This document shows positions 13,151 through 57,000 of a DNA stretch of 64,000 bases, in pieces. The first letter of the stretch is position 1. Every line of letters starts with the position of its first letter. Origin of the DNA: Epilithonimonas zeae (lineage in GTDB: Bacteria > Bacteroidota > Bacteroidia > Flavobacteriales > Weeksellaceae); the NCBI RefSeq assembly GCF_900141765.1, contig NZ_FSRK01000001.1, positions 1,984,001-2,048,000 on the forward strand, in the 5' to 3' direction. Position numbers and translations under genes: made by a program. The notes under the pieces are model-generated. The model saw only the letters and a list, made by a program, of their open reading frames with translations, searched no databases and was not told the origin of the DNA.

Positions 13151-13185
13151 ATTGATTTTTCTAAAACCACAAAAAATATTTTAAA

Positions 13186-13320: not shown

Positions 13321-13432
13321 TACACACCAAAAATACAATCAAATTTCTTTCAAAATAAGCATTAACCTTCCATTAACCGTTCATTAACAAAACTTTCCTG
13401 CGTTTCGTCTCAATTTTGTCAAAATTATTGAA

Positions 13433-15784: not shown

Positions 15785-15846
15785 TATCAATGATAATCGC
15801 TGAATGATAATTGATTTAATCAAAAAACTTAACACTTTTAATTAAA

Positions 15847-15879
15847 AAAACGGTTGTTTCAAATATGAACAACCGTTTT
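15847..15879. terminator. Bidirectional intrinsic terminator
   Basis: Stem AAAACGGTTGTT/AACAACCGTTTT (15847-15858/15868-15879) with A and T runs on both sides. It serves the convergent ends at 15784 (+) and 15902 (-). Confidence 0.85.
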
Positions 15880-15901
15880 AATTTTATATCAATGTCAGTT
15901 T

Positions 15902-18274
15902 CTATTTCTTTCCCGCAGCCTGCATCGGATTTACTTTTCCATTGGAAGCACCTCTTGCAGCATCTTTTTGTTTCTGTTTGAAAACCTGGAATTTGCTTGG
16001 TGTTTCTGATGAAGTTGAAGCAGCCCAGAAATTATTAGAAGTATCAATATCTGCTGTTTCTCTCATTGGGTCGACTTGGACAGACTTCAGTTTCTTATCA
16101 AAATAATAAGTCTTGGAAGCTTTTTGTTCGTTATGTCTCCAAATCTGAACACTTATTTTGTCATTCAGTTTCGAACCATCCTCAAATGTAAATTCCAAAA
16201 TGATTGGCATCACCAATCCACCCTTATTCGAAAAATCGATTTGATAAGCGGTCACATTATTTTCTTTTTTGATGTCTTTTGCATCTAATTTCTCTAGGTT
16301 TCCAGTCGTTAAATTATATTCTTTAGATGTATCTACTTTCTCCTGCCCACGGTCATATCTGTAATAGAAATCCTGAACATCTTTGTCTGATTCTACATAG
16401 AATTTGATGTTCTTATCTTCTTTGTTTCTGATTTTGGAAACATCTTCAAACTCGTTTTGAACAGGTTTTTCAACATTATATTTAACCGTTTCAGATTGAG
16501 GTGTTGAATCAAAGTCAGGTATCGCAACTGTCACTTTATCTAAAGAAATATCTACAGGATCTGTTCCATAAAACCAGCCTCTCCAGAACCAATCCAGATC
16601 TTCCCCACTCGCATCTTCCATCGTTCTGAAAAAATCTGCTGGTTCAGGATGACGGAAAGCCCATCTTTTTGCATAAGTCTTGAAAGCTTTATCAAATAAG
16701 TCTCTTCCCATAATGGTTTCACGAAGAATATTAAGCCCAGTTGCCGGTTTTGAATAAGCATTCGGACCAAATTTTGCGATGTTTTCGGAATTAGACATAA
16801 TCGGTTCCAAATCATCTTTCGGAAGTTTCATATAGTCAACGATTGTCCAAGCTGGGCCACGTTTTGACGGGAATTTATTATCCCATTTTTCTTCGGTCAA
16901 ATATTCAACAAAAGTATTGAGACCTTCATCCATCCAGCTCCATTGTCTCTCATCAGAATTGATAATCATTGGAAAGAAATTGTGACCCACTTCGTGGATA
17001 ATTACGCCTAACATTCCATTTTTGATGGCTTCAGAATAAGTTCCGTCTTTTTCGGTTCTTCCGTAATTGAAGCAAATCATCGGATATTCCATTCCGTTCG
17101 AAGCTTCCACAGACTGTGCTACTGGGTATGGATAAGGAATCGTGAATTCTGAATAAGTTTTAATCGTGTGAGCTACAGCTTTTGTAGAGAATTTTCTGTA
17201 AAGTCCGTAAGCTTCTTTTCCGTAAAAGCTCATTGCCATTACTTTATTATTATTTTCAGGAATCGTAACTCGCATCCCGTCCCAAATAAATTTTCTTGAA
17301 GAAGTCCAGGCAAAATCACGAACGTCATTCGCTTCAAAAACCCAAGTTTTTCTTTGTTTGGAGTGATTTTTCTCTGCTTTTTTGGCTTCGTCTAATGTTA
17401 CAATTTCTACCGGTTCGTTCGCAGATTCGGCTTTTCTATATCTCGCTAATTGCTCGGAAGTCAAAACCTGTTCGTAGTTTTTACATTCGCCCGTTCCACC
17501 GACAACGTGGTCAGCAGGAACATTCATTTTTACTTTATAATTTCCAAAAACCAAAGAAAATTCGCCGCGTCCTGTGAACTGATGATTCTGCCAGCCGTGA
17601 AAATCACTGTAAACACACATTCTTGGAAACCATTGTGTGATGGTGTAAAGGTCGTTTCCGTCTTCAGGGAAATTTTCATATCCACCTCTTCCGCCTTTTT
17701 CGATACGATTCGGGATGTTGTAGTTCCAATTGACTTTGAAAACAAATTTCTCTCCTTTTTTCAATGCTTTTGGAAGGTCAATTCGCATCATTGTTTTGTT
17801 GACCACATATTTCAACGGATTGCCGGAAACATCGGTTACTTTTTCCAGATTTACCCCATAACCATTATCAGAAACAGGAAGTTGAGTTGCTTTTAGTTTA
17901 TCAATCGTTGTTCTTTTAGGCAAAGTAGAAGAGAAGGAATAATCTGCATTTTTCACAGAAGATTGTTCATTTTCGTCCAGCTGTAGCCATAGATAATCCA
18001 AATCATCCGGTGAATTATTGTAATATGTGATTGTTTCTGAACCTTTCAGATTTCTTTTATCTTCATCCAGATAAGCCTCAATATCATAATCCGCACGTTG
18101 TTGCCAATAAGCGTGGCCTGCTGCTCCAGAAGCTGTTCTATATACATTGGGCGTTGGAAGAATGGTTCCGAGTTGTTCGAATTTGTTTCCGTGGTTGCTT
18201 CCAGGATTATTTTGGATATTCTGTGCTGAAACCACAGCAGAACAGAATAAAAGTCCTAAAACTTTTAATTTCAT
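15902..18274 (-). CDS. M1-family zinc metallopeptidase, secreted
   Basis: I start at the ATG at 18274, which opens directly on the signal peptide MKLKVLGLLFCSAVVSAQ; the frame extends five codons further to a TTG. The protein is 790 residues. The catalytic zinc site is intact: HEVGH in MLGVIIHEVGHNFFPMI, and the downstream Glu in WMDEGLNTFVEYL, the M1 gluzincin signature. The N-terminal lobe is the beta-rich M1 domain. It probably trims peptides in the periplasm or outside the cell. No T9SS tail was seen. Confidence 0.9.
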   Translation of the reverse strand: MKLKVLGLLFCSAVVSAQNIQNNPGSNHGNKFEQLGTILPTPNVYRTASGAAGHAYWQQRADYDIEAYLDEDKRNLKGSETITYYNNSPDDLDYLWLQLDENEQSSVKNADYSFSSTLPKRTTIDKLKATQLPVSDNGYGVNLEKVTDVSGNPLKYVVNKTMMRIDLPKALKKGEKFVFKVNWNYNIPNRIEKGGRGGYENFPEDGNDLYTITQWFPRMCVYSDFHGWQNHQFTGRGEFSLVFGNYKVKMNVPADHVVGGTGECKNYEQVLTSEQLARYRKAESANEPVEIVTLDEAKKAEKNHSKQRKTWVFEANDVRDFAWTSSRKFIWDGMRVTIPENNNKVMAMSFYGKEAYGLYRKFSTKAVAHTIKTYSEFTIPYPYPVAQSVEASNGMEYPMICFNYGRTEKDGTYSEAIKNGMLGVIIHEVGHNFFPMIINSDERQWSWMDEGLNTFVEYLTEEKWDNKFPSKRGPAWTIVDYMKLPKDDLEPIMSNSENIAKFGPNAYSKPATGLNILRETIMGRDLFDKAFKTYAKRWAFRHPEPADFFRTMEDASGEDLDWFWRGWFYGTDPVDISLDKVTVAIPDFDSTPQSETVKYNVEKPVQNEFEDVSKIRNKEDKNIKFYVESDKDVQDFYYRYDRGQEKVDTSKEYNLTTGNLEKLDAKDIKKENNVTAYQIDFSNKGGLVMPIILEFTFEDGSKLNDKISVQIWRHNEQKASKTYYFDKKLKSVQVDPMRETADIDTSNNFWAASTSSETPSKFQVFKQKQKDAARGASNGKVNPMQAAGKK

Positions 18275-36103: not shown

Positions 36104-36802
36104 ATGTCTGATACATTTTCTGACCATCATCAAATCAAGACCGTTTCAACTTTCAAGGAACTTGTAGAAACAGAGTTTCAAGGTAACAACAATGCTATCT
36201 GCTGGCAAAGAAATCTGGTTGGAGATTTTGGAGAAATTGTTTCCAAACTTGAACTGAAAGAAAACATTACAGAAGTTTCTGTTGAAGATTTAGAAAGTCT
36301 TACACTTTCAGAAAATGGTCAGCTTGCCAGAGAAATCATCATCAATGATTTACAATTATTAACTGATTTTGGCGCTTCGCCGTCACTTAATTTACTTAAA
36401 AATTACGAGCGTGATGATGAGTTCAATTTCATCTCAACAGATGTCTATTCTTATCACGTAGACCGCTCACCTATCGCTACCAGTACATTTCTTTGCACTT
36501 ATTTTGGTGCAGCAAGTGACATTTTACCTAATGATCAGGCAATCCAAAAAATTCTAGTTCCTGAAATCCGTGAAAAACTAAAAGAGCTACACGATGGCAA
36601 AGAGGAAGATTTTGAGGCTTTTTTGAAGGAGTATTATTTTGATTTACATTATCAGCCGAAAGCCAATGTGCATCCCATCAATCTCGGTTTGGGAAATCTC
36701 TGGCGTTTGTCCGTAGATCATCCGGAACAGACAGTGCCACCGTGTGTCCACCGTGCACCTGTAGAAAACAAGGACGAATATCGGTTGCTTTTGATTTGTT
36801 AA
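36104..36802 (+). CDS. DUF1826-family protein
   Basis: 232 residues. NAICWQRNLVGDFGEIVSKL near the N-terminus, YSYHVDRSPIATSTFLCTYF in the middle and VPPCVHRAPVENKDEYRLLL near the end fit DUF1826. Its conserved His, Asp and Cys residues suggest a metal-dependent oxygenase-like fold, though function is not established. It follows the radical SAM gene and is the last core gene before the island border 10 bases downstream. Confidence 0.75.
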   Translation: MSDTFSDHHQIKTVSTFKELVETEFQGNNNAICWQRNLVGDFGEIVSKLELKENITEVSVEDLESLTLSENGQLAREIIINDLQLLTDFGASPSLNLLKNYERDDEFNFISTDVYSYHVDRSPIATSTFLCTYFGAASDILPNDQAIQKILVPEIREKLKELHDGKEEDFEAFLKEYYFDLHYQPKANVHPINLGLGNLWRLSVDHPEQTVPPCVHRAPVENKDEYRLLLIC

Positions 36803-36811
36803 AAAGCTAAA

Positions 36812-36829
36812 TTACTTTCCGATACAGAA
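36812..36829 (-). other. Attachment-site footprint: last codons of mnmE (left border of genomic island)
   Basis: Read on the minus strand, this 18-mer is TTCTGTATCGGAAAGTAA, which encodes F-C-I-G-K-stop. That is the near-universal C-terminus of the tRNA-modification GTPase MnmE, and no mnmE body lies next to it. SGI1-type elements in Gammaproteobacteria integrate in exactly this part of mnmE (trmE) and leave an 18-bp direct repeat. Upstream on the same strand the translation (IDKDFFT) no longer looks like MnmE, so homology stops at the core. The intact mnmE with the second copy should lie beyond the right edge. Confidence 0.7.
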
Positions 36830-36899
36830 TGTAAAGAAGTCTTTATCAATGGTACTTTACGAAGCTTAAGATGTACAAAAGTGGTACATAAAATTTCAT

Positions 36900-37844
36900 T
36901 TAAACTTTAAACAATTGTATCCTTTGCTGTAATAAATCTTTATATATTTTTTTCTTTTCTTGATCAAGGAAAGAAATACTTATTAATTCCATCATCTTTT
37001 CTTCCGCCTTTATAAATCTTTCAAAAATATTTTTTATCTGTCTTTCAGATAAACCGAATTTCAAACCTAAATTGATAAAGTCAGCTTTTGTTAATCGGCT
37101 CTTCTTCCCTCCAATTGTCAATGCTGTTTCTTCTTTATCTTCCGGTAAATGAAGTTGGACATTAAGTAAATCATAAGCGGGCGAAAACACCCAATCTTCA
37201 CCTTTCAAAATCATAGAAAAATTCTTGAGGTGCATATCATTATTTCCAGTGAGGTAACTAAAAACAGTTACTTCATAAAGTCGTACAACATCAAGTAAGG
37301 TATTAGAAGAATACTCATTCAAAGCTTTACCCACTTTCTCCATAGAGCTTTTATACTTATCAAACGCTTCTGTTATCTGAAACATATCCAGCATATGAAT
37401 TTTCCTATTAGAGGATGCTCTATCAATTCTTTTGGTTATGTAAGAAAGTTCCCCTGATTTCAATCTTATCAATGAAGAGGTTACAGTTTGGATTCCTAAT
37501 AATTCTGCCAATTTCATTGTCAAATGCTCGTTTTCCGGCATTTGGGGGAAAATTATATTCTGAGGTTTCAAGATGTAATTTCCACCTAAAGCTTCTAGAA
37601 CCGTCAATCTTCCTCTAGTTCCATCTTCTAATTTTTCTTTTATAAAACTCAAAGACAATTTGGGTTGTACACCCGGTACAGAGATAGATATTTCTATGAC
37701 TTCCTTAGCTAAAAGTTCCATTTCGCTCAGAGTGTAATTAAGCAGTGGAGCTGTTTCTGTTCCAAATATTTTTTTACTGCATTTTTTATGAAAGTCAATC
37801 TCGTTGTCTTTCAAAAGCTGATAACAAAAAAGACACTTACTCAT
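36900..37844 (-). CDS. HipA/HipT-like Ser/Thr kinase toxin
   Basis: 314 residues. The N-terminal CLFCYQLL plus FHKKC form a possible zinc-binding patch. Kinase features follow: the Gly-rich-loop signature SVPGVQPKLSLSF, the catalytic GNNDMHLKNFSMIL (Asp as base) and the metal-binding PAYDLLNV. The N-terminal subdomain of classical HipA is missing and encoded separately upstream, as in HipBST of E. coli O127, where HipT phosphorylates a tRNA synthetase. It overlaps the HipS-like gene by 8 bases and is last in the three-gene operon. Confidence 0.85.
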   Translation of the reverse strand: MSKCLFCYQLLKDNEIDFHKKCSKKIFGTETAPLLNYTLSEMELLAKEVIEISISVPGVQPKLSLSFIKEKLEDGTRGRLTVLEALGGNYILKPQNIIFPQMPENEHLTMKLAELLGIQTVTSSLIRLKSGELSYITKRIDRASSNRKIHMLDMFQITEAFDKYKSSMEKVGKALNEYSSNTLLDVVRLYEVTVFSYLTGNNDMHLKNFSMILKGEDWVFSPAYDLLNVQLHLPEDKEETALTIGGKKSRLTKADFINLGLKFGLSERQIKNIFERFIKAEEKMMELISISFLDQEKKKIYKDLLQQRIQLFKV

Positions 37845-38172
37845 CAGTAGATAAATCTAAAGGTTCAACACTCACTGACCCGATACAATTTTTACAACAA
37901 GCTAAAAGTAAGCCCATCCGATCATTCTTATTAATTTTCCAGTTATCAGAGGCAATATCCAAAAGCCACCCTTCAGGAATAAGTCCTTCAAAAAAAGGAA
38001 ATAATCTTTTGTCTTTGTACACTTTGTCAGTTACAGGCATAGAAAATGTCAGAAACTGTTTAGGATATTCTTTAATATAAGAAGATTCATAGGCGAATGT
38101 ATATTCGCCATCATTAGTTTCTGTAATGATTCCTGCAAAAATATCATTGTAAAAAACTTTTCCTTGTCTCAT
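37837..38172 (-). CDS. HipA N-terminal subdomain protein (HipS-like, putative antitoxin)
   Basis: 111 residues matching only the HipA N-terminal subdomain: FAGIITETNDGEYTFAYESS and KDKRLFPFFEGLIPEGWLLD. In characterised HipBST systems the stand-alone HipS is the antitoxin that blocks the kinase. Its ATG overlaps the HTH gene stop (38169-38172) and its end overlaps the kinase start, so the three genes are translationally coupled. Confidence 0.8.
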   Translation of the reverse strand: MRQGKVFYNDIFAGIITETNDGEYTFAYESSYIKEYPKQFLTFSMPVTDKVYKDKRLFPFFEGLIPEGWLLDIASDNWKINKNDRMGLLLACCKNCIGSVSVEPLDLSTDE

Positions 38173-38381
38173 TCTTCAACTTCTTTAGCATTCATTGGAA
38201 TAAGCTTACTACCAAACATCAAAAGAACCTGATTGACCTTTGCTAGACTCAAATTATCTTTTCCTTGTTCTATTTTACGAACTACAGTAAGAGCAACTCC
38301 TGTTTTATCAGCAAATTCTTCTTGAGTCAAATTAGCTTCTTTACGTTTTTGCTTTACAAAATTTGACAAATTGGTATACAT
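38169..38381 (-). CDS. XRE-family HTH regulator (HipB-like)
   Basis: 70 residues with a single XRE/Cro helix-turn-helix: LTQEEFADKTGVALTVVRKI and LSLAKVNQVLLMFG. It is the first gene of the HipBST-like operon and probably represses it by binding the direct repeats upstream (38411-38461). Confidence 0.85.
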   Translation of the reverse strand: MYTNLSNFVKQKRKEANLTQEEFADKTGVALTVVRKIEQGKDNLSLAKVNQVLLMFGSKLIPMNAKEVEE

Positions 38382-38410
38382 AATTATATGCTTTTACATC
38401 GATTACTATG

Positions 38411-38461
38411 CAAAAGTATAAAAATATATGCAAATAGATATAAAACAAGAACAAATAGATA
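38411..38461. promoter_or_regulatory. Direct-repeat array upstream of the HipBST-like operon, putative HipB operators
   Basis: Three copies of a 10-mer on the plus strand lie 20 and 21 bases apart, about two helix turns: CAAAAGTATA (38411), CAAATAGATA (38431) and CAAATAGATA (38452). The first overlaps a minus-strand TACTTTTG (-7 type) box at 38411-38418, 30 bases upstream of the ATG at 38381. The rest of the gap 38382-38724 is AT-rich and I see nothing else in it. Confidence 0.5.
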
Positions 38462-38724
38462 AATTATATTTAAAAACATATAATTTAAAAATTAAAACTT
38501 GTATACAATTTTGTTTAGTAATCGAATATTTTTGGAAATATACAATCGTACTACTTTGTCCATCTTTTAAACTACTATATTTTAAGCAGATGTAAAGATA
38601 ATTAGTACATTCGCTTCACAAATTTTATAAAAGGGAAATTTTTCTTGTTAGCTATTTAATAAACATTTTAAATTTCATACAAAATATCTCTGAATTTTAT
38701 CAAAAATGACTAGGAAATATTTAA

Positions 38725-41815: not shown

Positions 41816-42460
41816 TTAACTTTTTATACTGCTCGTCATTTCACCCATCAATAATTTCAACCGTAAATTCAATTCCACTTTTTTATTAAATTGTTTACAC
41901 CTTAAAATTTCTGATTTAATTTTTTCAATCTCTTTCTTAATACTATCTATATTTTTTTCTATCTCAATAATTTCCTGAAGATTTTTTGAAGCACTAGTAT
42001 CACTTACAAATTGAGAACAAAAATTTTTGTAAACCCAATCCAAATTATTTTTAAGTTCAACACAAGGTGATAATTCGTTTTCATCATTCCAATCTGTAGA
42101 AAATGTATAGTCAATTACTGAATTGTCATCATTGGTTGGGTGGGAATGTTTAGCAGAGGTTGAGATATAAAATTCATTATTAAATCTAACATTGAAAATA
42201 ATTTGATACGGAATTGCTTTATCAATAATTAGAAGTAAATCCTTAATGTAAAGCTTTTCTTTTAACTCAATTTCGAAAATTTGTATTTCTTGTATATCTT
42301 TTCCTGCAAGGTTTATGGTATCTTGAGATAATTTATTAGCCCAGGTTATTCTTAAAATCTTTTCGCTAATTATCTTTTTCTGCTTCGAGTTGGTGTAAGT
42401 ATCAAAAGCATTTTTTGGAATTACTTTTTTTACAACAGTCGATTTGGGTAGATCAAACAT
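41816..42460 (-). CDS. DUF4391-family protein of the restriction operon
   Basis: 214 residues. The opening MFDLPKSTVVKKVIPKNAFD matches the DUF4391 signature (F-LP-ST-V-K-IPK--F). The core ends in a helical, probably coiled-coil segment (IIEIEKNIDSIKKEIEKIKS). DUF4391 genes are typically found next to SNF2/PLD helicases and type III-like methylases, and this one begins 8 bases after the helicase stop. Its biochemical role is unknown. It is the last gene of the nine-gene operon. Confidence 0.8.
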   Translation of the reverse strand: MFDLPKSTVVKKVIPKNAFDTYTNSKQKKIISEKILRITWANKLSQDTINLAGKDIQEIQIFEIELKEKLYIKDLLLIIDKAIPYQIIFNVRFNNEFYISTSAKHSHPTNDDNSVIDYTFSTDWNDENELSPCVELKNNLDWVYKNFCSQFVSDTSASKNLQEIIEIEKNIDSIKKEIEKIKSEILRCKQFNKKVELNLRLKLLMGEMTSSIKS

Positions 42461-42468
42461 TCAGTAAT

Positions 42469-45400
42469 TTATTTTACAATTAAAAACGAGATTAATTTAA
42501 AATCCTCAATACCCTTAAACTTTTCTTTCATCACGTTGGTACCGCCAGATTTGAATAAACTCAAAACTTCTTTTTCATCTTCAGTTTCTAAAATAGTAGC
42601 GATGGATTTCTTTAATAATTTTGAATAAACTGACATATTATGATACTCTTCAGTTTCTTTGTTAAGTTCCTCACACAATGCAGTAATAGGTTCTTTTACT
42701 CCTTTACATAACATCCGAATAGCATCCAAGATTTTCTTAGAATCAATATGATTAAACAATAACTTCCCCTCATCACTGATATAAACTAAATAAAAAGGAT
42801 GTAATCGATTTAGCTTATTGATATTGATGCTTTCGTTAATGTTCTTCAAAACGTATATCACTCCAGGTTTCAAAATTTCTGTAGAACGAATAACTGCGTG
42901 TATTCCTTCTGGGATATCAACTAGTTCTCTATATTCCTTAATGAAATTGGATAAATCGATTCTAAAATCATTTAGTCCTAAATCTGTTATATCAATTCCT
43001 TCTCGTAAATCTTCCAAGTCTGTAACTTCATCTTGTAGTTTTTTCAACTGAATTTTACGGTATTCCAAATCTTTTTGATTCTCTTTCAGAATATTATCAT
43101 CAGCTGTACTTGCCATATCTGAAATAAGCATCCTATCTTCGACTCTTTGTTTTAAATTAATATAATTATCTAATGTGATATCGGGCCAAAAGTTGACCAA
43201 GGTAATCGTTTCGTTGGTCGAGCCAATTCTATCTATCCTTCCAAAACGTTGAATAATACGAACTGGATTCCAGTGAATATCATAATTAATCAGATAATCA
43301 CAATCCTGTAAATTTTGCCCCTCAGAAATACAGTCCGTAGCTATGAGAATATCAATTTCTTCATTAATTGTTGGAAAGATCAAGTCTTTACCTTTAGACT
43401 TAGGAGAAAAACAAGTCAATAATGCATTAAGTTCCGTAGGTATAGTTTTAGCAGTTGTAACTCTTCGTGATCCCGTAATTAAAGTTGTATTAATTTGAAA
43501 TTCATCTTTAAAAACCTTACCTATATTTTTATACAGGTAATCTGCAGTGTCAGCAAATGCCGTAAAAATAATAACCTTCTTATTATTAGCATTAAGCGGA
43601 TTTTCTACTTTATTCTTAATTGCCGAAATAAGTTTCTGAAGTTTGTAATCTACTGATGGAGTTACTATATTAACTTTCTTTAGAAGTTCATTCAAGGTAC
43701 TCAAATCTTCTTCCAAATCCTCTTTCCATTGCATCCGGTCAATATCCGCAAGATGAACTTTTACTTTTTTTCCAAAAACATTTTCTTCATCTCCCCAATT
43801 AGCGTCCCAGTCAAAGTTTTCATCTTCTGTATCAAACTGAGGACTGAACAAATCCTCCAAACCATCTTTTGACAAAGCTCCTATAGTTTGTTCTATTTGA
43901 GAAACAATCCCATTAGTTGTAATTCTGAATGAATCTATGGAACTTTCAATTCGTTTCAGTAGATTAATTCGCATCAGAATCTTCAAGCTTTTTTCTCTGT
44001 CTACCTGCGTCAGCTTTCCACCTTTAGTTTGCTTATCATAAAGTTCCGCATACTTGGAAACCTGACTTGGCAAAATATATTTCAATGGTGTATATACGGA
44101 AAGATTCAACTGTCCTAATAATTCAGCTATTTCCACATAGGTTAAAGAATGATTTTCCGTTAGAGGACTTTCTATAGAAACTGGTATGTTTCGCTTTGGG
44201 AATTTACCTATATCACTAGTATCATAATAAGTTGTAATATGTTTTCTGGATCGGGCAATGGTAAGAGAATCCAATATCTCAAAAAAATCAAAATCTAACA
44301 TATCCAAAAGCTTTTCTGTAGTTCTTTCAGATAAATCTAGTTTTGTCCAAACGTTAAATGCTTTCTGAGTTCTTTTGAAAATACTGTCAATACCTAGTTC
44401 TGTGTCTAACTTCTCATCAATAATTTCTGAATTACCTTCATAAGCTAATGCCAATTGATTTTTAAGGTCATTGAATTTATTGTTTACGGGCGTTGCAGAA
44501 AGCATCAATACTTTCGTTTCAATACCTTCACGCATTACCTTTCTCAATAACGCCTGATAACGGTTTTCTTTTTCTGAATAAGTTAAGCCCGCATTTCTGA
44601 AATTATGTGATTCATCAATCACCACCAAACCGTAATTTCCCCAATTGACATTCTCTAAATTTCTTCCATTACTCATTCCTTTATCTCTCGACAAATCGGT
44701 ATGGAACAGCAAATCATAATTAAAGCGGTCTTTAGCTAAAATATTGGTTTTATCATTATGGCGGTAGGTATTCCAGTTGGCTTCCAGTTTTTTTGGACAA
44801 AGTACCAAAACATCTTTATTACGCATTTCATAATATTTGATGATTCCCAAAGCTGAAAAAGTTTTCCCTAAACCAACGCTGTCTGCCAAAATACAGCCTT
44901 TGTATTTTTCCAGTTTATTGATGGCACCAATCACAGCATCTTTTTGGAAATTAAAAAGCTTATTCCAGACTACAGTATCTTTAAAACCAACTTTATCATC
45001 AGGGAGATTATCAATACTTAGGTCATCCAAGAAGTTATTGAAAATATTATACAACGTAATAAAATAGATAAACTCTGGACTGTTATCCTTAAAAGCTTTC
45101 TCAAAATAATGCTGTACTTTTTCAGTAACTTCTTCCAGATTCTCATCATCTTCCCAAACCTGATTAAACCAATCCAAGTATGCTTTACTGTTAGGGAATT
45201 CTGTTTTTTGGATCAACGTAGGAAACCCTTTTATAGGTGTGATTCCCAAATCTGCGGTTGTGAAACTGTTGATACCATTCCAGGCAAGCGAAGACTCCTC
45301 TTTATCTGATGAATGAATCATTCCCTGCATTGGATAGTTGGTCTGCTTATTAGATTTAAAAGTAACCTTATCTTTTACCCATTGACTACACTCTTGAGCA

Positions 45401-45699
45401 ATGGCACGCTGCGTGAGTTGATTTCTCAATCTCAATTCAAATTCGCCACCACAAAGATCTGCTTCTTTAAAAAGATGTGGAATGAAAAATTTTGGAACTT
45501 CTTTCTTCAAATTCTCTTGCAGAAAACTGGGAGATGTAAAGATAAACCGCAACTCATCAACTCCTTGCAGTTCTTTTCGCAGTGCTTCAAAGGCATAAAT
45601 CGAAAATGATGATGCTGCAATGGCAAGTTTGCTTTTCTTTTTGATGTTCTCTTTGAGATCATCTACAAGGCGGGTGTTGATGTTGTCGATTAGTTTCAT
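42469..45699 (-). CDS. SNF2-type helicase with N-terminal phospholipase-D-like domain
   Basis: 1076 residues. The N-terminal PLD-like part (about 20-155) keeps a degenerate HxD motif (MIHSSDKEESSLAWNGINSF). SNF2/RapA helicase motifs follow: Walker A ADSVGLGKT (272-280), DESH box (362-365), motif III LMLSATPVN, and C-terminal ATDCISEGQNLQDCDYLINY with QRFGRIDRIGS. It should translocate on or remodel DNA using ATP, with a possible nuclease activity from PLD. Start at 45699 is 3 bases past the DUF262-DUF1524 stop. It belongs functionally with the DUF4391, Mod and Res genes. Confidence 0.88.
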   Translation of the reverse strand: MKLIDNINTRLVDDLKENIKKKSKLAIAASSFSIYAFEALRKELQGVDELRFIFTSPSFLQENLKKEVPKFFIPHLFKEADLCGGEFELRLRNQLTQRAIAQECSQWVKDKVTFKSNKQTNYPMQGMIHSSDKEESSLAWNGINSFTTADLGITPIKGFPTLIQKTEFPNSKAYLDWFNQVWEDDENLEEVTEKVQHYFEKAFKDNSPEFIYFITLYNIFNNFLDDLSIDNLPDDKVGFKDTVVWNKLFNFQKDAVIGAINKLEKYKGCILADSVGLGKTFSALGIIKYYEMRNKDVLVLCPKKLEANWNTYRHNDKTNILAKDRFNYDLLFHTDLSRDKGMSNGRNLENVNWGNYGLVVIDESHNFRNAGLTYSEKENRYQALLRKVMREGIETKVLMLSATPVNNKFNDLKNQLALAYEGNSEIIDEKLDTELGIDSIFKRTQKAFNVWTKLDLSERTTEKLLDMLDFDFFEILDSLTIARSRKHITTYYDTSDIGKFPKRNIPVSIESPLTENHSLTYVEIAELLGQLNLSVYTPLKYILPSQVSKYAELYDKQTKGGKLTQVDREKSLKILMRINLLKRIESSIDSFRITTNGIVSQIEQTIGALSKDGLEDLFSPQFDTEDENFDWDANWGDEENVFGKKVKVHLADIDRMQWKEDLEEDLSTLNELLKKVNIVTPSVDYKLQKLISAIKNKVENPLNANNKKVIIFTAFADTADYLYKNIGKVFKDEFQINTTLITGSRRVTTAKTIPTELNALLTCFSPKSKGKDLIFPTINEEIDILIATDCISEGQNLQDCDYLINYDIHWNPVRIIQRFGRIDRIGSTNETITLVNFWPDITLDNYINLKQRVEDRMLISDMASTADDNILKENQKDLEYRKIQLKKLQDEVTDLEDLREGIDITDLGLNDFRIDLSNFIKEYRELVDIPEGIHAVIRSTEILKPGVIYVLKNINESININKLNRLHPFYLVYISDEGKLLFNHIDSKKILDAIRMLCKGVKEPITALCEELNKETEEYHNMSVYSKLLKKSIATILETEDEKEVLSLFKSGGTNVMKEKFKGIEDFKLISFLIVK

Positions 45700-45702
45700 T
45701 AC

Positions 45703-47541
45703 TTAATTTGAAATGATTAAAATTCTCTCTCTGTTTTCTAACAAATCTGCTACTTCAATTCTATGATTTGAAATTTCTTCATTACCCCATTGCTTGTGTC
45801 GATTTGTAATATCGTAAATTATTTTCTGTTTTGGAGGTAGATTTGTCTTGTAATACTTACCATCAATGGCAGCTTTCCCAGTGGGATGCTCATTATTCAT
45901 TTTAGAATTGGAACTTTTGCTTACCAAACAAAGATTACCCAGGTTATCAAGCAAACTTTCATTAATTTCGTTCTTATAAGACTGAGGAAGATGATGTTCA
46001 ACTGAATTACGATAAGTAAATTTAAAATCAGAAGGACTTTGAACCCAATACAAATAATCAATAAAATTGAATAAAAAATGCGGGACTTTCACTCCTTCAT
46101 CAAATTTCGCAGAATCTATTTTTCCATCAAAATGGTTCAATATAATTTTATCAACAAAAGACTGAAGTTTGATATTTTCAATATTAAACCTTTCTCTATC
46201 GGAAAAGAAATTCAGTATTTCCTGTAACCAATTTTTATATTTTCTGTTTCTGAATGTAACTTGTAAAAGTGAAATTGATTTGATAAGTCTTTCTTGGTCG
46301 TTATAAGAATTTTTATACTTTAAGCTAGTAGAAATTTTATTTTCTACTTTGGAGTAATCATAACGAGTAGGCTTCTTTAGTGTCCATTTATAACTTTCTT
46401 CATCCCTATCATCGTCTGTAGACTTTACAATAAACCTGTCAAAAACAGTACGATAGTAAAGTAAATCATTAACAAAGTCTTTTGCATCTATTATATTTTT
46501 CAAACTCTCATACACAGTAATGAGGTCTTTCTCATTCAAAGGGATTTCTGTTTCATTTCCATTATCATAATAAGTTTGATATTTTACTTTAAAAATATGC
46601 ATTAAGAAATTTGGAAAATCAATAATCGATTGGTCTTTTCCGGAGTCATCAATATCTTCAATCTCAACTGAAGTAAGTTTCTTAGTCGTATTTTCCAATG
46701 CTTGATTGATTGAAAATCCGCTCTTAAAATAAGATTCTTCGTCCTCAAAATCTACTTTTCTTATATGATCATAATTTTCTCCAAAGTATTTCCGTCTTTC
46801 TTCAGATGAAAATAATTTCTGAATATGAGTATCCATCTGTGAACAGGCATCCCATATTTTAGAAAATTCATCTTGTTGTTTCTCAAAATAATTGCCATCC
46901 TTATCTTTCAAAGTTTCTATAAGATAAGATTTTAGAATTTCGTGTTTCTGCAATTGTTCGCCACGATTATTCATTATTTCAAAGTAATTAGCAACATCTG
47001 TATCTTGTGGAATTTCTATACGGACAAGAACTACATTTTCAAAAACAAACTTTCTGAACTGCTCCAAACCCTCTATATCATAAAGTCTTTTCTCTATATC
47101 CTCATCAGGATTTACAATAGATTGCTGTAGCAAATCTACAGCATTAATCAAATGAGAGACTTTGTAATCAAAAGTAACTTCCGTTGTTTTTCCATTTCTA
47201 TAATAAGAATCAAAAAAAGACTCTACTTCCGGTCTAGATTCGTAAAAGAGCTTTGGCTCTTTTACAAGATTCAATATTTTTAGTAATAGAGATAAGGTAG
47301 TCAAACGCTGTTGCCCATCAATTACCTCATATAATCCGTCATTCCTTTTGAGAACCACTAAACTCCCAATAAAGTAATTTAAAATTGGATTGGTTTTAGA
47401 CTTTTTAAAATTCTCATACAAGTCCTGAAGCAACTGTTCTATTTCATCTTGCCCCCAAGCATAATTTCTCTGATAAAGAGGAACTATATATTTACTTTGA
47501 AAAATTTGTTTTAAGCTTTTATTTAGATTTTTAGTTGACAT
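45703..47541 (-). CDS. DUF262-DUF1524 protein (GmrSD-like HNH restriction enzyme)
   Basis: 612 residues. The N-terminal DUF262 (ParB/sulfiredoxin-like) domain has YIVPLYQRNYAWGQDEIEQL and the DGQQR motif (75-79). The C-terminal DUF1524 His-Me finger nuclease has SVEHHLPQSY (EHH 515-517) and LDNLGNLCLVSKSSNSKMN. GmrSD-type enzymes use the DUF262 NTPase to license the HNH nuclease against modified phage DNA such as glucosylated cytosine. Both parts are intact by motif. The gene overlaps the upstream DUF262 gene by 11 bases. Confidence 0.87.
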   Translation of the reverse strand: MSTKNLNKSLKQIFQSKYIVPLYQRNYAWGQDEIEQLLQDLYENFKKSKTNPILNYFIGSLVVLKRNDGLYEVIDGQQRLTTLSLLLKILNLVKEPKLFYESRPEVESFFDSYYRNGKTTEVTFDYKVSHLINAVDLLQQSIVNPDEDIEKRLYDIEGLEQFRKFVFENVVLVRIEIPQDTDVANYFEIMNNRGEQLQKHEILKSYLIETLKDKDGNYFEKQQDEFSKIWDACSQMDTHIQKLFSSEERRKYFGENYDHIRKVDFEDEESYFKSGFSINQALENTTKKLTSVEIEDIDDSGKDQSIIDFPNFLMHIFKVKYQTYYDNGNETEIPLNEKDLITVYESLKNIIDAKDFVNDLLYYRTVFDRFIVKSTDDDRDEESYKWTLKKPTRYDYSKVENKISTSLKYKNSYNDQERLIKSISLLQVTFRNRKYKNWLQEILNFFSDRERFNIENIKLQSFVDKIILNHFDGKIDSAKFDEGVKVPHFLFNFIDYLYWVQSPSDFKFTYRNSVEHHLPQSYKNEINESLLDNLGNLCLVSKSSNSKMNNEHPTGKAAIDGKYYKTNLPPKQKIIYDITNRHKQWGNEEISNHRIEVADLLENRERILIISN

Positions 47542-48964
47542 TATATACTAAATTGAAATCAGTTAATTTTACTTTATTTGAATCAAAAGATTCCAACTTT
47601 ATTTGTTGTTCATCAAAAAACTCAATCACTCTTTTAACACCTTTTTTACAAACTACTTTCTTATTTGCAATTTTTTCCAAATGAATTAAATCAGAATAGG
47701 TTTGAGCATTTTCTATGATATTGAATACTTTGTTGTGAACAGGATAATCTGCAACACTTGCGTATCTTACTTGTTCCCTTTCAAGACGAAGTCTGTAAAC
47801 CAAGAGATATAAAATCTTATGATATTTCTCAACACCTTCTTCTCCAAACTTATCAAACATCAGCATTATCAATGATTTATAAAGTTCAAATAGATATTGA
47901 TCTCCATCACGATGCGAACCTAAATATTTACAATTCCTTTCAATAAACTTCTTGAACTCTATCATTTCATTATACTCAGAATGAAAAATCCTCTTGTAAA
48001 TTTCAACGTAGGTTTCTGTATAATCAAAAAAATCTTTTCCATTAACAATATTTTGGTTGAGTAAAGCAAATGGACTGATATTTTCAGGTGAAGATTGCTT
48101 GAATCGTGACTTAACACCATTTACAGTTATACCCAGTGAGTTTAAATAATGTTGCACTACGTACTGCAACAATGCTTTATTTTGATATGGAAAATCAATA
48201 GGATGATTCTTACTAACATTAATTCCTTTAAACTCTTTAATTTCTTTTTTACTAAATTCTGATGCTGTTTCCTTTCGGCTCCACAATCGTGTTCTATAAA
48301 GCTGTTCATTAATAAGTTGTCTAAGTAAATCTGAAACTTGCTTGCTTTCCTTATTCGATTGATATCTTGCAGCGCCTTCCCAGGTTTTGTCACAAGCAAT
48401 TTTTTCTTCAAACGTATTACTTTCCATCGCACGAATATGATATGCTTTTAAAAGATTATAAGCTTCTAACTCTTTTCCACGTCCGTTTTGAGAATCAAAC
48501 ATTTGAAATGCTTCAGACAGATCCCTTACCCTAATCTCTACAAACTCACAATATTCTAAAATATACTTTGCGAAACTATTGGCATCGTTTCCAAAATTTT
48601 CTTGTAACCAAGAATCAATAAAACGCTTATTGTTAATAATTGCGTTTAATGAATCTTGATGCTTGTATTGCAGTGACTTTCTTAAAGCGGAACCGATTGG
48701 ACTTCCTAATGATTTTAGAATGAGTAAAATAGTGGTAATGCGCTGTTGACCATCAACAATATTTAGTTTTGAGTCTTTGTTATTAAGAATGACACTGCCA
48801 ATTCTGTAAGAACTTTTTCCTTCTTTCCAGCTATGGGTAATATCCTCTAGTAATAAACGTACATTGTTTTCTGTCCAGCGATAAGGTCTTTGGTAGTTTG
48901 GGATTTCCATTTGGTCATCCAATACTTTGATGACCTTTTTGATTTCAGCAGTTATTTTTTCCAA
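47531..48964 (-). CDS. DUF262 protein without a recognisable HNH tail
   Basis: 477 residues. The DUF262 domain has IPNYQRPYRWTENNVRLLLE and DGQQR (71-75), then a long helical region (EIRVRDLSEAFQMFDSQNGR, typical of this family). The usual C-terminal EHxxP of DUF1524 was not found, so it may act as a GmrS-like NTPase subunit serving the DUF1524 nuclease encoded next to it. The 11-base overlap with that gene supports a pair. Confidence 0.83.
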   Translation of the reverse strand: MEKITAEIKKVIKVLDDQMEIPNYQRPYRWTENNVRLLLEDITHSWKEGKSSYRIGSVILNNKDSKLNIVDGQQRITTILLILKSLGSPIGSALRKSLQYKHQDSLNAIINNKRFIDSWLQENFGNDANSFAKYILEYCEFVEIRVRDLSEAFQMFDSQNGRGKELEAYNLLKAYHIRAMESNTFEEKIACDKTWEGAARYQSNKESKQVSDLLRQLINEQLYRTRLWSRKETASEFSKKEIKEFKGINVSKNHPIDFPYQNKALLQYVVQHYLNSLGITVNGVKSRFKQSSPENISPFALLNQNIVNGKDFFDYTETYVEIYKRIFHSEYNEMIEFKKFIERNCKYLGSHRDGDQYLFELYKSLIMLMFDKFGEEGVEKYHKILYLLVYRLRLEREQVRYASVADYPVHNKVFNIIENAQTYSDLIHLEKIANKKVVCKKGVKRVIEFFDEQQIKLESFDSNKVKLTDFNLVYNVN

Positions 48965-49820: not shown

Positions 49821-51032
49821 TTAATTAGAAATCCCGATCTCTTTAGCTAATTCTTTAAACAATAGACTTTGCAGTCCTGCTGAACCACCACCTCTATACC
49901 TGCTATTTTCTCCAAAATATCTTTCTGATAATTCTTTTCCTTCTAACGTTTTTTTATTGAACGGCTTAAAAATATCATTAAAAATTTTCTCTAATTCTTC
50001 AATAGTTAGATCTTTCAAATCTTTTTTATCATAATTCGGAAATAGTCCTAGCTTAAAAAGTTCATTTATTCTACCTAACAATCTAAGAAATGCACCTAAA
50101 CTTGTTGTTTTAGAAAGAATTGTAGAGTCACTTTTCTCTATAGATTTTGGCCAATAATCTGACAGTTCATTTTTTATGGTATTAAAGTAGGCAACAAAGA
50201 CCTTAGGAAGTTTTTTATGTAGATCAAGTCTGTTTTGATCATCCTTTTTAAAATCCTCTACCACGTCATTCCATCCTCCTCTAGAGCCCAACAACCGTAA
50301 AATTTGTTGTGTTAAAAAAGCTTGTGAAATAAATCCATCATTTGAATTAAAATTCTTAACAAATCCTTTTAAAGGAGATTTAGTGGAAGAATTAAGAAAC
50401 TTACCTAATTCGTGTGCAACATATAAGTCACTTAGCTTTTCATCTTTTCCAAATTTTGGTGCTTCACCAAAAATATCATAATACAATGATCTATCTACAG
50501 GTTTCTGATTAAAATTAACATCTGCAAATATTTTTGCCTGTTCCCAAATGTCGTAATCAACCAAGATGGTACAATTAAATTTGTAATTTAAAATTTTCGC
50601 AAGTTTTTTTTCAGAAAAAAACTGGCTTTCAATATCTCTGTATAACGAAAACATTGCTTTCATACGATGTTGACCATCAACAATCAGGCAACTCTGTTTT
50701 TCGATAGGTAGTTCGAAATTTACAACATTAAAAAGGTCTTTTGTAAATTCAATTGAATCTGAGCTAATGCTCAAAATCATAGATGAAGGAAATAATATAT
50801 CAGAATCGTTATTTTCAAACAACGTATTGGAAATATATCTTTTTATGTTCCCGACTCTAATTTCATTAGTTTGACGTTGATAAAATTTAGATCTTTCATC
50901 ATTTTCAGAGTTATCAGACCAATTTGACGTTGTTCTCTGCGTAAACTTTACAATATCTTTTAAATCTTTAAACCTAATAGCTGTAACCAAAATCATATGA
51001 TCTTTATTACTGTATAATTCAATAGCTTTCAT
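49821..51032 (-). CDS. DGQHR-domain (DndB-like) protein
   Basis: 403 residues. The motif CLIVDGQHRMKAMFSL (DGQHR 119-123) and the preceding RVGNIKRYISNTLFENN define the DGQHR family, a ParB-like fold. The family includes DndB, the regulator of phosphorothioate DNA modification. The C-terminal part is helical. No dnd genes are near. It is 10 bases from the membrane protein gene and 57 bases from the HNH gene, the widest gap in the operon. It may act as a DNA-binding sensor or regulator. Confidence 0.8.
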   Translation of the reverse strand: MKAIELYSNKDHMILVTAIRFKDLKDIVKFTQRTTSNWSDNSENDERSKFYQRQTNEIRVGNIKRYISNTLFENNDSDILFPSSMILSISSDSIEFTKDLFNVVNFELPIEKQSCLIVDGQHRMKAMFSLYRDIESQFFSEKKLAKILNYKFNCTILVDYDIWEQAKIFADVNFNQKPVDRSLYYDIFGEAPKFGKDEKLSDLYVAHELGKFLNSSTKSPLKGFVKNFNSNDGFISQAFLTQQILRLLGSRGGWNDVVEDFKKDDQNRLDLHKKLPKVFVAYFNTIKNELSDYWPKSIEKSDSTILSKTTSLGAFLRLLGRINELFKLGLFPNYDKKDLKDLTIEELEKIFNDIFKPFNKKTLEGKELSERYFGENSRYRGGGSAGLQSLLFKELAKEIGISN

Positions 51033-52159: not shown

Positions 52160-54043
52160 TTATAAAACCTTCATCTCACTCCCCGCACTCAACTGCTTCA
52201 ACAACTGCTTCACATTCTCTTTCGCCGTATCATCTTTAAAACCTTTATCTCGAAAAACAATACGCAATGGTTTTTCCTTAGCGATTTCCTTGGCAAAAGC
52301 TTCATCAATACCATCATCAAAACAGCAGTACAGTGAATCTCCGGCTACGGAATAGACTTCTTTGCCCGAAATGGTTTTGCGTTCAATAGGCAGCGAAAGT
52401 GGTAATCCCCAATCGAGCATTATCTGAGTAAGCAAATCTTCTGCTGTACGACCTTCTTTTACATTGTCTGCAAAAAGGTCTAGCGTACCTTGGTTATAAT
52501 CCTGCGGTTTATAGTACACATCTTGCATATTGGAGGAATCTAAACGGTACACACGGAAACCATAATCCTGCTCATCTTTAAATTCTGAAAACAAACCATC
52601 TTTTTTGGCTTTATCTATTTTTTCTTCTTTTATTTTATTGGAAGCACGGCGAATTCTTTCTTTGCCTATTTCACAAATGTTTTTGTAACCAGCTTTGTAG
52701 GCTTCCGTTTTTTCATCACTAGCTTCAGGAAGTTGTACCATTATGTACTTTCTATTACCATCATCTTCTGCATTTAGTTTCATAACAGCGTGTGCTGTAG
52801 TAGCAGAGCCCGAATAGAAATCCACTACCGTAAAATCATTCTCTGTTCTGAAAAGCTCTGCCATTTTTTGAATCAAGCCAGTAGGTTTAGGTGTATCAAA
52901 AGGTACATTATCACCAAAAAGTTCTTTTAACTCTGAATTTGCGATTCTTGTAGTTCCAAAAACATTTCCATCCCAAAGGTTTTCAGGAGTTCTTCCTTCT
53001 TGTTCTGACAAGTATATTTTCCTTATTATCCCAGAGTTATCATTCTTAAATATGATTTCTTTAGATTGAATTTTATTTTTCAATACTTCTTCCGACCATC
53101 GCCATCCGTTATCAGGAGGATTAATAATGTTTCCATTAGGTGCAATTATTTGAAATTTCAAAGTTTGCCTTAGATTTGGACTTCTAACATCTCCACTTCT
53201 CCAAAATCCTTTGGGATCATCATCAGGATTAGAGTAATTCTTGTTATCTTCTTCGGTTCTATTAAATTTGAAGTTTTTTGTGATTAAAATATTTTTACTG
53301 TAAACCAAATTATAATTTGATTGTCTAGATAAAAATCTTTCATCATTCTTGCTCTGCTGAGTATGTTTCCAAGTGATACATCCTATAAAATTACTTTCTC
53401 CAAAGATTTCGTCACAGATTTTACGAAGATTATGTACTTCATTATCATCGATGGAAATAAAAATGACACCATCATCTTTCAACAAATTTCTTGAAAGTTT
53501 TAAAACTGGATAAATATTACTAAGCCAATCTGAGTGATACCTTCCATCTGTTTTAGGATTTGGACTAAGCTTTCTATTTTCTTCGTCTATTTGTCCACTT
53601 TCAAATAACTCTTCCCCTCCCGATTTAGCAAAATTATCTTTATATACAAAGTCATTTCCCGTGTTGTAAGGCGGGTCTATGTAGATCATTTTTATTTTGT
53701 TCAGATAACTTTCCTGTAAAAGTTTCAGCACTTCCAGGTTATCACCTTCTATGTAAATGTTTTCGGTGGTATCAAAATCAACAGAATCTTCCCTCACTGG
53801 TCGCAAGGTTTTAGTAGTTGGGATATTGGCGGTTACAATAGCTTCGCGTTTTCCGGGCCATTCCAGTCGGTAGCGTTCTTTGTTTCCTTCTACTATTTCG
53901 GTAGAGAGTTCCTGTTTCAGCAAATCAAAATCTATCTTTTTGCCTTCTGCCGTTTCGGTAACGCAGTTGGGAAAAAGAACAGCTATTTTATCAATGTTCA
54001 TAGCTGTTATATCGGTAGATTGTAGGTCTAATTTATCGTTCAT
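52160..54043 (-). CDS. Type III restriction-modification methyltransferase (Mod), N6-adenine type
   Basis: 627 residues. The beta-class order of motifs is seen: motif IV DPPYNTG (123-129) before motif I FYSGSATTAHAVM (409-421), typical of type III Mod. The DNA-recognition region lies between them (about 220-380). It should methylate adenine in a short asymmetric site and, with Res (54050-57181), form the type III complex. Separated from Res by 6 bases; the next gene is 16 bases on. The C-terminal 100 residues look complete. Confidence 0.92.
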   Translation of the reverse strand: MNDKLDLQSTDITAMNIDKIAVLFPNCVTETAEGKKIDFDLLKQELSTEIVEGNKERYRLEWPGKREAIVTANIPTTKTLRPVREDSVDFDTTENIYIEGDNLEVLKLLQESYLNKIKMIYIDPPYNTGNDFVYKDNFAKSGGEELFESGQIDEENRKLSPNPKTDGRYHSDWLSNIYPVLKLSRNLLKDDGVIFISIDDNEVHNLRKICDEIFGESNFIGCITWKHTQQSKNDERFLSRQSNYNLVYSKNILITKNFKFNRTEEDNKNYSNPDDDPKGFWRSGDVRSPNLRQTLKFQIIAPNGNIINPPDNGWRWSEEVLKNKIQSKEIIFKNDNSGIIRKIYLSEQEGRTPENLWDGNVFGTTRIANSELKELFGDNVPFDTPKPTGLIQKMAELFRTENDFTVVDFYSGSATTAHAVMKLNAEDDGNRKYIMVQLPEASDEKTEAYKAGYKNICEIGKERIRRASNKIKEEKIDKAKKDGLFSEFKDEQDYGFRVYRLDSSNMQDVYYKPQDYNQGTLDLFADNVKEGRTAEDLLTQIMLDWGLPLSLPIERKTISGKEVYSVAGDSLYCCFDDGIDEAFAKEIAKEKPLRIVFRDKGFKDDTAKENVKQLLKQLSAGSEMKVL

Positions 54044-54049
54044 CTCGGT

Positions 54050-57000
54050 TTATTTTAATTGCGCAATATCTCTTAATTTGTCATAAGTGGTAATGACATC
54101 AAACTTCACTTCGCCATTACTGATGGTTTTAAAGTGTTCCTTTGCACAATGTATTTTTAATTGTTCAATTCCTCTCAGGTCGTTTACATTTTCAGAACCT
54201 TTTGTTTCAGCTACAAAGTAGATGTACTTCACTTTTTCACTGTCTAAAACGATTGCCCAGTCGGGACTATAACTAGCAACAGGTGTGGCAATGTAAAATC
54301 CTTTAGGTAATTTAGCATAGACTACAACTTCTGTAGCCTGCTCCAGATTTTTGGTAAATTCTCTTTCTATTTTAGAATCTGTCTCTAAGAAATCGTAAAT
54401 ATGTTTTTGAAGGATTTCTTCGGTACGCAATACATTTTTTCCATTGGTAAAAACAGTTTTTGCATCAAACGATTCTTCTGTTTTGTGGTATGCAATATTG
54501 TTAATAATGAGCGAAGCTTTAGTTTCGTTGATGAGCTTAGCACATTTAGCAATAAATTCTTCCGGATTCTTTCTCAAAAGCGCGAAAGTATTCGGACTGA
54601 TTTTTTTCAGAATAGAAACAATAGTAAGGCGCTTCAGATTGGTCAACGCTTCTATTTCACCAACAATATCATAAGCCACTTCGGTATAAAGGTCGGAAGA
54701 TAATTTTTTAGAATCTGTTTTTGTGACATTAATAGCCGTTCCTTCTTTCAGATCTTCTTTGGAAACCTCACGCATTTCTCCGGTCTTGATTTCGTATTTG
54801 CGTTCTGAGATATGCAAATCTGCATCAATACGGATTCTGCTGTCATCAATCAGTTTATCGGTATCAAATTTCACTTCATACACCGTTTTCAGACTGATCT
54901 TTTTCCAAAGCTCCTGAAACTCTTTTTTAGCAAAGTTATTATTGATGGTTAACGGAACGGTGTCACTGGCATTTTCAGGCTTAATACCTTCTCCATTGTA
55001 AACAGATTGTAGCAATTGGCTAATGGCAGAAGCATAAGCAGCTAAATGTTCCGGTACAGGAACTTCATTTTTTTCAATTAGCTCTTTTCCTTCTGAAGTT
55101 ATTTTATCGTCCTCGTCCAAAATGTCGTGTTTATACAAAAACTTATTTAGTTTTTTAGCATCTTCATCTGTAAGACGTAAAGTTTCGCCCAATTCATTGG
55201 TCAAAACTTTTCCAACAAAGAATTTGGTATCTGCTTTTACCGGACGGTCTTTCAGCGATTTTGCAATTTCATTCTGCAAACCTCTGGCAAACTCTTCATA
55301 ACTTTCAGAAGCTATAACTGTCAATACATTAATGTCGTGAACCTGTTCGCCAACAAGTTCAAAATCCTGACGAACACCTCTTTTGTCAACTGCTAAACGC
55401 ATTCCACGACCGACTTCCTGTCTTCTTCTAGTTTGGCTTCCACTATCTACATTTTTCAAGGCACAGATTTGAAATACATTAGGATTATCCCAACCTTCTT
55501 TCAAAGCCGAATGCGAAAAGATAAAACGTGTAGGTTCCTCAAAACTCAGCAGCCCTTCTTTATCTTTCATAATCAAATCGTACGCAGAAACATCATCAGA
55601 GTCTTCACTCCCTCTTTTGATGGTTGGGTCAACAGGTTTTCCTTTTTTATCAATGGAAAAATAACCGTTATGTACTCGGTCTGCGTCATCACGCTGCAAA
55701 TAATGTAAGTAACTTCCAGGTGCATACACTTTTGAAGTTTTATTTACATCGGTTTCAATCACATAATCGGTATAATCCTGACGGAATAAATCAATAAATT
55801 GATTAATAGCATTCTTGTATTCCTCTTCAAATATCTGAGCATATTCGCCCAATTCTTCTTCGCCCATCTCATTATACTTTCGGTATTTCTCAACAGAGTC
55901 AATAAAGAATAGAGACAAAACCTTAATTCCTTTCTCAAAAAGTATCTTTTCTTTCTGTAAATGCGACAGAATTGTTTCCCTGATTTGAATTCTACGGAAA
56001 GCCAACTCGTCTTTGTCATTAATAATATCTCCGGGATAAATATCCCGCCCATTAACTACAATTTTGTTGAGATAACCGTTGATTTCCGCTACCAAACAAT
56101 TTTTGTAAGCTGGTAAACCGCCCGAAACTTCATATAAATCTGTTCCCTGTGCAATTTTTTCACGAACCCGTTTTACACCATTTCCACTTCGTTGCTCATA
56201 TTCCAGATAAGCTAAAGGAGGTTTGTTTGCGCTAAGACTAATGTATTCAAGATATAAATATCCCGTAGTCCCAGAAGATCCTTTCAAATTAATCCCTTTT
56301 ACCTGAATCTTCTTTACCAGCTTTTTATTATACGCATCTAAGGCATCTAAACGGAAAATTTTATTGTATTCTTCCAGATGCGTTGCAGAATATCTTAAAG
56401 TGAAAAGAGGATGAAAATCTTCCATACTTTTCAGCGTAATCGAACCTTCTTTACCAACAGATTGTGGTTCGTCAATAATAATAATCGGTTTTGTTTGCGC
56501 AATTATGTCAATTGGTCGTCGCGAGCCAAAATGATCTAACTCCTGATGAATTCGCCTTGCATCAGCACCTTTGGCAGCAAAAGCCTGAGTATTAATTACC
56601 ATTACGCTGATTCTCCCATCCGAAGCAAAACTCTCAATATCCTGTGGTCGGGAAGAATTATAAATAAACGGACTGATTTTATGTCCATAGATTTCCTGAA
56701 AATGATCCTGTGTTAATTCAAAGGTTTTAAAAACCCCTTCTCTGATAGCAATACTTGGAACAATGATGATAAACTTGCTCCAGCCATATTTTTTATTCAG
56801 CTCATACATTGTACGGATATAGGTATAGGTTTTACCCGTACCTGTTTCCATCTCAATCGTAAAATTGTAGCCAATATTTGCTCCTTTTACAATATCAATT
56901 TTTTGATTTTCTATCAGGTAATGCTCACGCTGTACACCAACAATATTATCAAAAATTTGAGATTCGGTAATTTGTATGGTGCTATTCCTATAACCAATCA

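Follow-up and report, generated by a model that had tools for sequence, protein, structure and literature searches.

A probable distal attachment site of an mnmE-targeting integrative element in Epilithonimonas zeae, detached from its target gene

The border between core genes and a genomic island in Epilithonimonas zeae, located within the analysed window (the whole stretch of 64,000 nucleotides, C1:1984001-2048000), probably represents the distal attachment half (attR) and the adjoining end of an mnmE-targeting integrative element that was separated from mnmE and the integrase gene by a chromosomal rearrangement. According to the proposed mechanism, a tyrosine integrase would insert the element into the 3′ end of mnmE; next to the integrase the MnmE C-terminus would be rebuilt, and the final mnmE codons of the recipient would remain at the opposite end. 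A later chromosomal rearrangement would have split this opposite end, which carries the toxin-antitoxin and defence genes, from mnmE and its integrase, the breakpoint lying just past the stop codon of the DUF1826-like gene, about 9 bases outside the att core. We regard the border as a genuine att border belonging to a known kind of element, most likely moved away from its gene by a rearrangement, and the element in the window is probably an immobilised half-element. The border comprises the following features:

36104-36802, plus strand: DUF1826-like gene, the last gene of the left flank (open reading frame; Pfam DUF1826 at 19.9 bits, cut-off 22)
36803-36811, no strand: 9-base spacer AAAGCTAAA, the putative breakpoint zone, resembling the integrase-side flank at mnmE (TTTAGCTTTT)
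36812-36829, minus strand: candidate 18-base att core, corresponding to the last six codons of an mnmE (word searches and comparison of halves); its outer half GGAAAGTAA adjoins DUF1826 and its inner half TTCTGTATC adjoins the island
36811-36891, minus strand: conserved distal end of mnmE-targeting elements (16 other matches in 13 of 23 genus genomes)
36872-36887: arm-like repeat TGTACAAAAGTGGTAC, inside the conserved distal end

The attachment core and the conserved element end

The 18-mer TTACTTTCCGATACAGAA at 36812-36829 is the sole exact copy of this word in the 4.08-Mb E. zeae genome (whole-genome word search). Its minus-strand reading, TTC TGT ATC GGA AAG TAA, gives F-C-I-G-K-stop, with no mnmE body attached, just as the initial annotation had described it, and the gene itself is located at C1:895520-896905. 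The DUF1826-like gene ends at 36802, leaving 9 bases before the 18-mer instead of the 10 originally given. The 3′ end of the genome's own mnmE, TTTTGTATCGGGAAATAA, encodes the same peptide with three synonymous third-position changes, and the degenerate word TTYTGYATYGGNAARTAA, searched with zero mismatches, is present at only two sites in the genome, mnmE and 36812-36829. Within the window, 3 matches with at most 3 mismatches were observed against 0.16 expected, a number reached in 0 of 100 shuffles. Chance, judged improbable from the outset, is ruled out by the shuffles, the degenerate-word counts, the family-wide control (517 matches against 26) and also because, in other genomes, the 63 bases next to the 18-mer are conserved together with it. 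That the word belongs to a second mnmE, surviving as a remnant or pseudogene, was ruled out as well, as the mnmE model search of the E. zeae genome gave 7 matches, a single one above the cut-off (C1:895547-896902, in the open reading frame 895520-896905) and six weaker ones, all outside the window.

When the segment 36104-36900 was used as a query against 23 Epilithonimonas genomes, 16 matches to approximately 36811-36891, besides the window's own, were obtained in 13 of them, with 71-88% identity; 14 of the 16 had a locus and were aligned. In all 7 genomes in which the element end shares a contig with mnmE, it is positioned past the mnmE 3′ end, in the orientation of the island, at distances of 10-37 kb (G021 10 kb, G007 18 kb, E. 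zeae genome 20 kb, G020 27 kb, G022 and G017 29 kb each, G008 37 kb), while in the other 6 genomes the copies sit on contigs without mnmE. The conserved end of about 81 bases containing the att core, present in the window as in those 13 genomes, thus bears out the proposed island border, and the 7 of 7 same-contig copies past mnmE bear out this gene as the target of the element family. Because the conserved element end is found past mnmE and integrase relatives are located at mnmE, the most suitable reading of the 18-mer is that of a distal attachment half of an mnmE-targeting element.

At the loci with a close integrase, the integrase-side half of the core is GGGAAATAA in 11 of 14 cases, the exceptions being GGCAAATAA in G020 and G008 and GGGAAGTAA in G007. 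The far-side half is variable, and is mnmE-like in 11 of the 14 aligned copies; of the remaining three, two are single copies in G009 and G005 with a common flank, and the third is the E. zeae copy at C1:917082. Among the loci with no integrase match, the mnmE end of G011 and G013 is GGAAAGTAA, identical to the outer half in the window, and the mnmE ends of G003 and G012 differ from it. We infer a crossover within TGTATC(G) and an origin of the outer half, the 9 bases GGAAAGTAA, from the original mnmE end of a recipient. The copies in G009 (L104) and G005 (L111) have an element end in common and an outer flank which is not mnmE-like (GCGCCGCC before CGATACAG), and perhaps belong to another target or another element.

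The E. zeae genome contains a second element end at C1:917082, with 79% identity to the window copy over 69 bases. It was rejected as the partner of the window att, being the far end of the separate 20-kb element at mnmE, with an outer half that is not mnmE-like, although a tandem array that was later broken up possibly links the two. Another apparent integrative and conjugative element (ICE), read by eye, extends past the mnmE element at C1:917-963k (L141, L142, L196, L197) and holds tra-like genes, a glycoside hydrolase, SusC/D-like cargo and a tyrosine recombinase at 961484-962707. That this ICE had inserted at 917 kb and carried the missing outer half of the C1:917082 att to about 963 kb was rejected, as the half was looked for around 963 kb and was not found there.

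The mnmE locus, its integrase and the island cargo

An mnmE locus was obtained from 21 of the 23 genus genomes, and in 17 of these loci an integrase match lies within 1.5 kb after the mnmE stop codon. Fourteen matches have at least 45% identity, and the weaker ones, in G006, G010 and G016, have 30-35%. In G014 and G021 the integrase gene may be broken, because the match after mnmE is in pieces. Integrase matches within 1.5 kb after mnmE were not found in G003, G011, G012 and G013, the last one having only 325 bases available. Judging from these sequences, mnmE is an integration hotspot in Epilithonimonas. The integrase adjoining mnmE combines the domains Arm-DNA-bind_5, Phage_int_SAM_5 and Phage_integrase, and HTH_17, VapE-like and Toprim-type genes come next (Pfam). 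The distal part of the G022 element contains genes resembling restriction-modification and other defence genes (read by eye).

A tyrosine recombinase directly after an intact mnmE had been predicted, and is indeed present at the C1:895520-896905 locus; it is the sole close mnmE-type integrase in the E. zeae genome, the other match having 30% identity at C1:961529. The prediction that mnmE would be found at the other end of the island failed, as the gene is 1.12 Mb away from the border, in opposite orientation and with its own element of about 20 kb. The window element is therefore not enclosed between mnmE and the distal att, and what is present in the window is, at most, a detached portion of an mnmE-targeting element. 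It has no mnmE-type tyrosine integrase of its own: since the sole close integrase of this type sits at mnmE, the window att is without its integrase half, which was not found in approximately 127 kb to the right (reading of open reading frames) or by a search of the genome. The initial annotation had set an mnmE located elsewhere with no second copy against its own reading, and this is literally what was observed; nevertheless, we retain the att reading, for which the conserved 81-base element end is independent support.

The surroundings of mnmE vary among the genomes. The tyrS-side genes are directly upstream of mnmE in the E. zeae genome (G000), G001, G012 and G020, are found beyond the att and reversed relative to mnmE in G022 (C1:1317626-1351723, L146-L148) and G008 (C11:187726-194796), and in G007 (C5:1505001-1554683) mnmE is also inverted relative to them; tyrS, panE, Rhs, ATP synthase and SusC/D are names read from translations, without a family search. 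From such arrangements, the mnmE-island cassette seems to have been flipped more than once.

To the right of the conserved end, the island in the window carries the following genes:

36900-38381, minus strand: HipA-type toxin-antitoxin module of three genes, namely the HipA C-terminal part, a separate N-terminal part and an HTH protein (Pfam HipA_C, Couple_hipA, HTH_3), a split module which we take to be 'HipBST'
41816-45699, minus strand: DUF4391 protein and SNF2-type helicase (best PADLOC model HKD+Snf2)
45703-48964, minus strand: two proteins matching PADLOC models HEC-06, Orf5 and SspE
49821-51032, minus strand: DndB/DpdB-like protein (profile matches)
52160-57181, minus strand: type III restriction-modification pair (profile matches)
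57335-58102, minus strand: Fic protein (profile match)
61196-62705, minus strand: DUF932 and SSB genes (profile matches)

A 116-base stretch at the start of the toxin-antitoxin module (38370-38483) has an 86% match about 1.4 kb past mnmE in G004. From 61196 rightward the island resembles an ICE, with an RteC gene past the window and with relatives of the DUF932 and SSB genes in another ICE-like region of the E. zeae genome. At C1:2051-2064k (L012:3741-4586 and 4632-16000), the RteC gene is followed by a TPR/AraC-type regulator, a MauE-domain protein and an S9 peptidase; G005, G003 and G001, and other places in the E. zeae genome, have parts of this gene set at about 63-73% identity.

The DUF1826 junction and the origin of the displaced site

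The left flank is collinear with G022, with 95.7% identity over 11.9 kb, up to position 36804. After DUF1826, G022, G020 and G006/E. hominis continue into another block and not into the mnmE anticipated for an island-free relative; none of the three carries the 18-mer after DUF1826, the occurrence of which in island-free relatives would have spoken against an island border. The sequences following DUF1826 are identical between E. hominis and G006, E. tenax and G019, and E. lactis and G008, from which the genus was judged to be Epilithonimonas. The post-DUF1826 block of G022 is found in E. zeae at about C1:1417-1473k, after a panE-like gene and 0.6 Mb off. This rules out a plain insertion between DUF1826 and its native right neighbour, and because the block of the nearest relative lies so far away, the place where DUF1826 meets attR resembles a breakpoint of rearrangement. 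Rightward of the island, patchy matches to the G022 DNA beyond that block begin from about C1:2077.7k, and core DNA at 98% to G022 resumes from C1:2129k. The order in E. zeae is consequently DUF1826, the att-bearing island, and then the region which the block separates from DUF1826 in G022. Illegitimate joining would be compatible with a break inside an A tract, the two sides being TTAAAA and AAAAGCTAAA. An ICE-like region with a serine recombinase and SSB, DUF932 and RteC-like genes is located where the moved block ends (C1:1473188-1501876, L208-L210), and a serine recombinase with an IS-like pair is present at the matching place in G022.

Three observations count against the proposed explanation of the border. 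In Chryseobacterium, DUF1826 is repeatedly found next to mnmE or to a bare att, and G001 also has an att after it, a recurrence that a random breakpoint leaves unexplained; the outer halves are unlike mnmE in 3 of the 14 element ends; and the integrase half of the window element was not found in the roughly 127 kb to its right.

In line with the initial annotation, DUF1826 and mnmE could have been native convergent neighbours in this lineage, with the island inserted between them and mnmE with the integrase moved away later, a course of events that we consider unlikely. In C. formosus and C. defluvii, DUF1826 and an intact mnmE are indeed convergent, as had been anticipated for relatives, with gaps of 11 bases and 1 base, respectively, which the 9-base spacer in the window resembles. 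A related 18-mer follows DUF1826 in both species, but as the end of the intact mnmE. Furthermore, 57 DUF1826 loci were fetched, 23 of them not from Acinetobacter/Moraxellaceae, and in 9 of these 23, always convergent, the 8 kb after DUF1826 contain mnmE (L020, L023, L025, L027, L058, L073) or a bare att/element end (L034, L037, L055); one locus, L068, had fewer than 200 bases available after DUF1826. The exact motif after DUF1826 was found in none of the other 34 of the 57 loci. DUF1826 was matched in 16 of the 23 genus genomes, among which G001 has an att 2.8 kb after it. Such data support DUF1826 and mnmE as natural neighbours in Chryseobacterium. However, a similar sequence leads from the DUF1826 stop codon into another block in the sister G022 and also in G020 and G006/E. 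hominis, which are more distant, and the G022-type junction looks ancestral because it is common to all of them. The upstream neighbours of mnmE are, moreover, unchanged in the E. zeae genome, G001, G012 and G020. Going by the closest relatives, these comparisons suggest that the junction in E. zeae may be the newer one.

It is rather improbable that the island arrived on donor DNA in which DUF1826 was already beside att, as in C. arachidis, and recombined in the conserved end of DUF1826. The last bases of this gene are well conserved, and such an arrival would explain why DUF1826 recurs beside att in two genera. Nonetheless, the alignment shows no tract of foreign origin, as identity to G022 is 92-98% in every one of the ten 100-column windows that precede the stop codon, and a comparison of 19 island proteins with the Chryseobacterium loci gave no match (E 1e-15, more than 30% identity; loci of up to 8 kb on each side). 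The DUF1826-like protein itself has about 69-76% identity between E. zeae and many Acinetobacter genomes, suggesting a recent transfer of the gene between phyla.

Very improbable is an integrase that placed the whole element at a secondary site after DUF1826, in the manner of SGI1 between sodB and purR. Secondary sites of SGI1 are described in PMC2297512, 3 of the 14 element ends have flanks unlike mnmE, and G022 holds TCTGTAT five bases past the DUF1826 stop codon. Still, the outer half in the window is a full mnmE-like 9-mer and not a G022-type flank, the polarity of a G022-type site would set the integrase, and not the far end, beside DUF1826, and the native right flank is absent after the island. 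An assembly error joining two regions at a repeat is hardly credible: the genome is in 4 contigs and the att end is present twice, but the two copies are distinct (79% over 69 bases) and on the DUF1826 side the sequence is unique. Separation of attR from mnmE by rearrangement is the reading preferred here.

Comparison with known islands and breadth across the family

In Gammaproteobacteria, SGI1 targets mnmE, also named trmE or thdF, forms tandem arrays and uses a secondary site (PMC2297512, PMC9035990, PMC5704250). SGI1 and related elements resemble the elements described here in the target, the last 18 bases of the gene, and in the behaviour of the att halves, with a constant attL half and an attR half that is the recipient's. 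In SGI1 elements, the last 9 bases of attR correspond to the trmE of the recipient and the last 9 of attL to the island (PMC9035990). In contrast, the host here belongs to Bacteroidota, and the att is detached from the gene: word and peptide match an SGI1-type att and the relatives sit at mnmE, but the window copy does not. The integrase here, as characterised by Pfam domains, has Arm-DNA-bind_5 and Phage_int_SAM_5 and precedes the HTH_17, VapE-like and Toprim genes, and none of the SGI1 backbone genes xis, rep, traN, traG and mpsAB was present among the six Pfam-scanned genes of the mnmE-linked element. The parallel with SGI1 drawn in the initial annotation is a likeness of function, in the target and the att-half pattern, and is not extended here to family membership; the element would work like SGI1.

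Islands targeting dusA likewise have integrases tied to a tRNA-modification gene (PMC4482086, PMC8409611), although that gene is another one and the site is at its 5′ end (PMC4482086). The 10K and 50K islands of Riemerella anatipestifer, among related bacteria, have an integrase beside the target and direct repeats at both ends, while their sites are at tRNA genes and not at mnmE (PMC6764341, PMC9745183).

The mnmE 3′ end is already known as an island target in Gammaproteobacteria, and no report of it in Bacteroidota was found in open PMC text. Elements at the same six codons in Bacteroidota suggest a general role of the conserved MnmE C-terminus as a landing pad. The 81-base end could serve as a marker for finding these defence-carrying elements. 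As a bare att may sit far from its target gene, mapping islands by the nearest target gene can fail. We tentatively propose that mnmE might be a family-wide hotspot for tyrosine-integrase elements with anti-phage cargo, with their att sites acting as recurrent rearrangement breakpoints. If this is true, mnmE would either invert along with its island or become separated from it, and DUF1826 would come to lie next to an att again and again.

Across 296 family genomes, the word TTYTGYATHGGNAARTAR gave 517 matches, against 26 in 25 genomes for the reversed control. The degenerate word was present in 290 of the 296 genomes and in two or more copies in 156 of them, a tally that overstates the number of islands because one genus has a recurrent TTTTGCATTGG word, located far from mnmE, that probably represents another gene. 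Same-strand pairs of the word, counted within 200 kb, were found in at least 30 family genomes, 2-163 kb apart.
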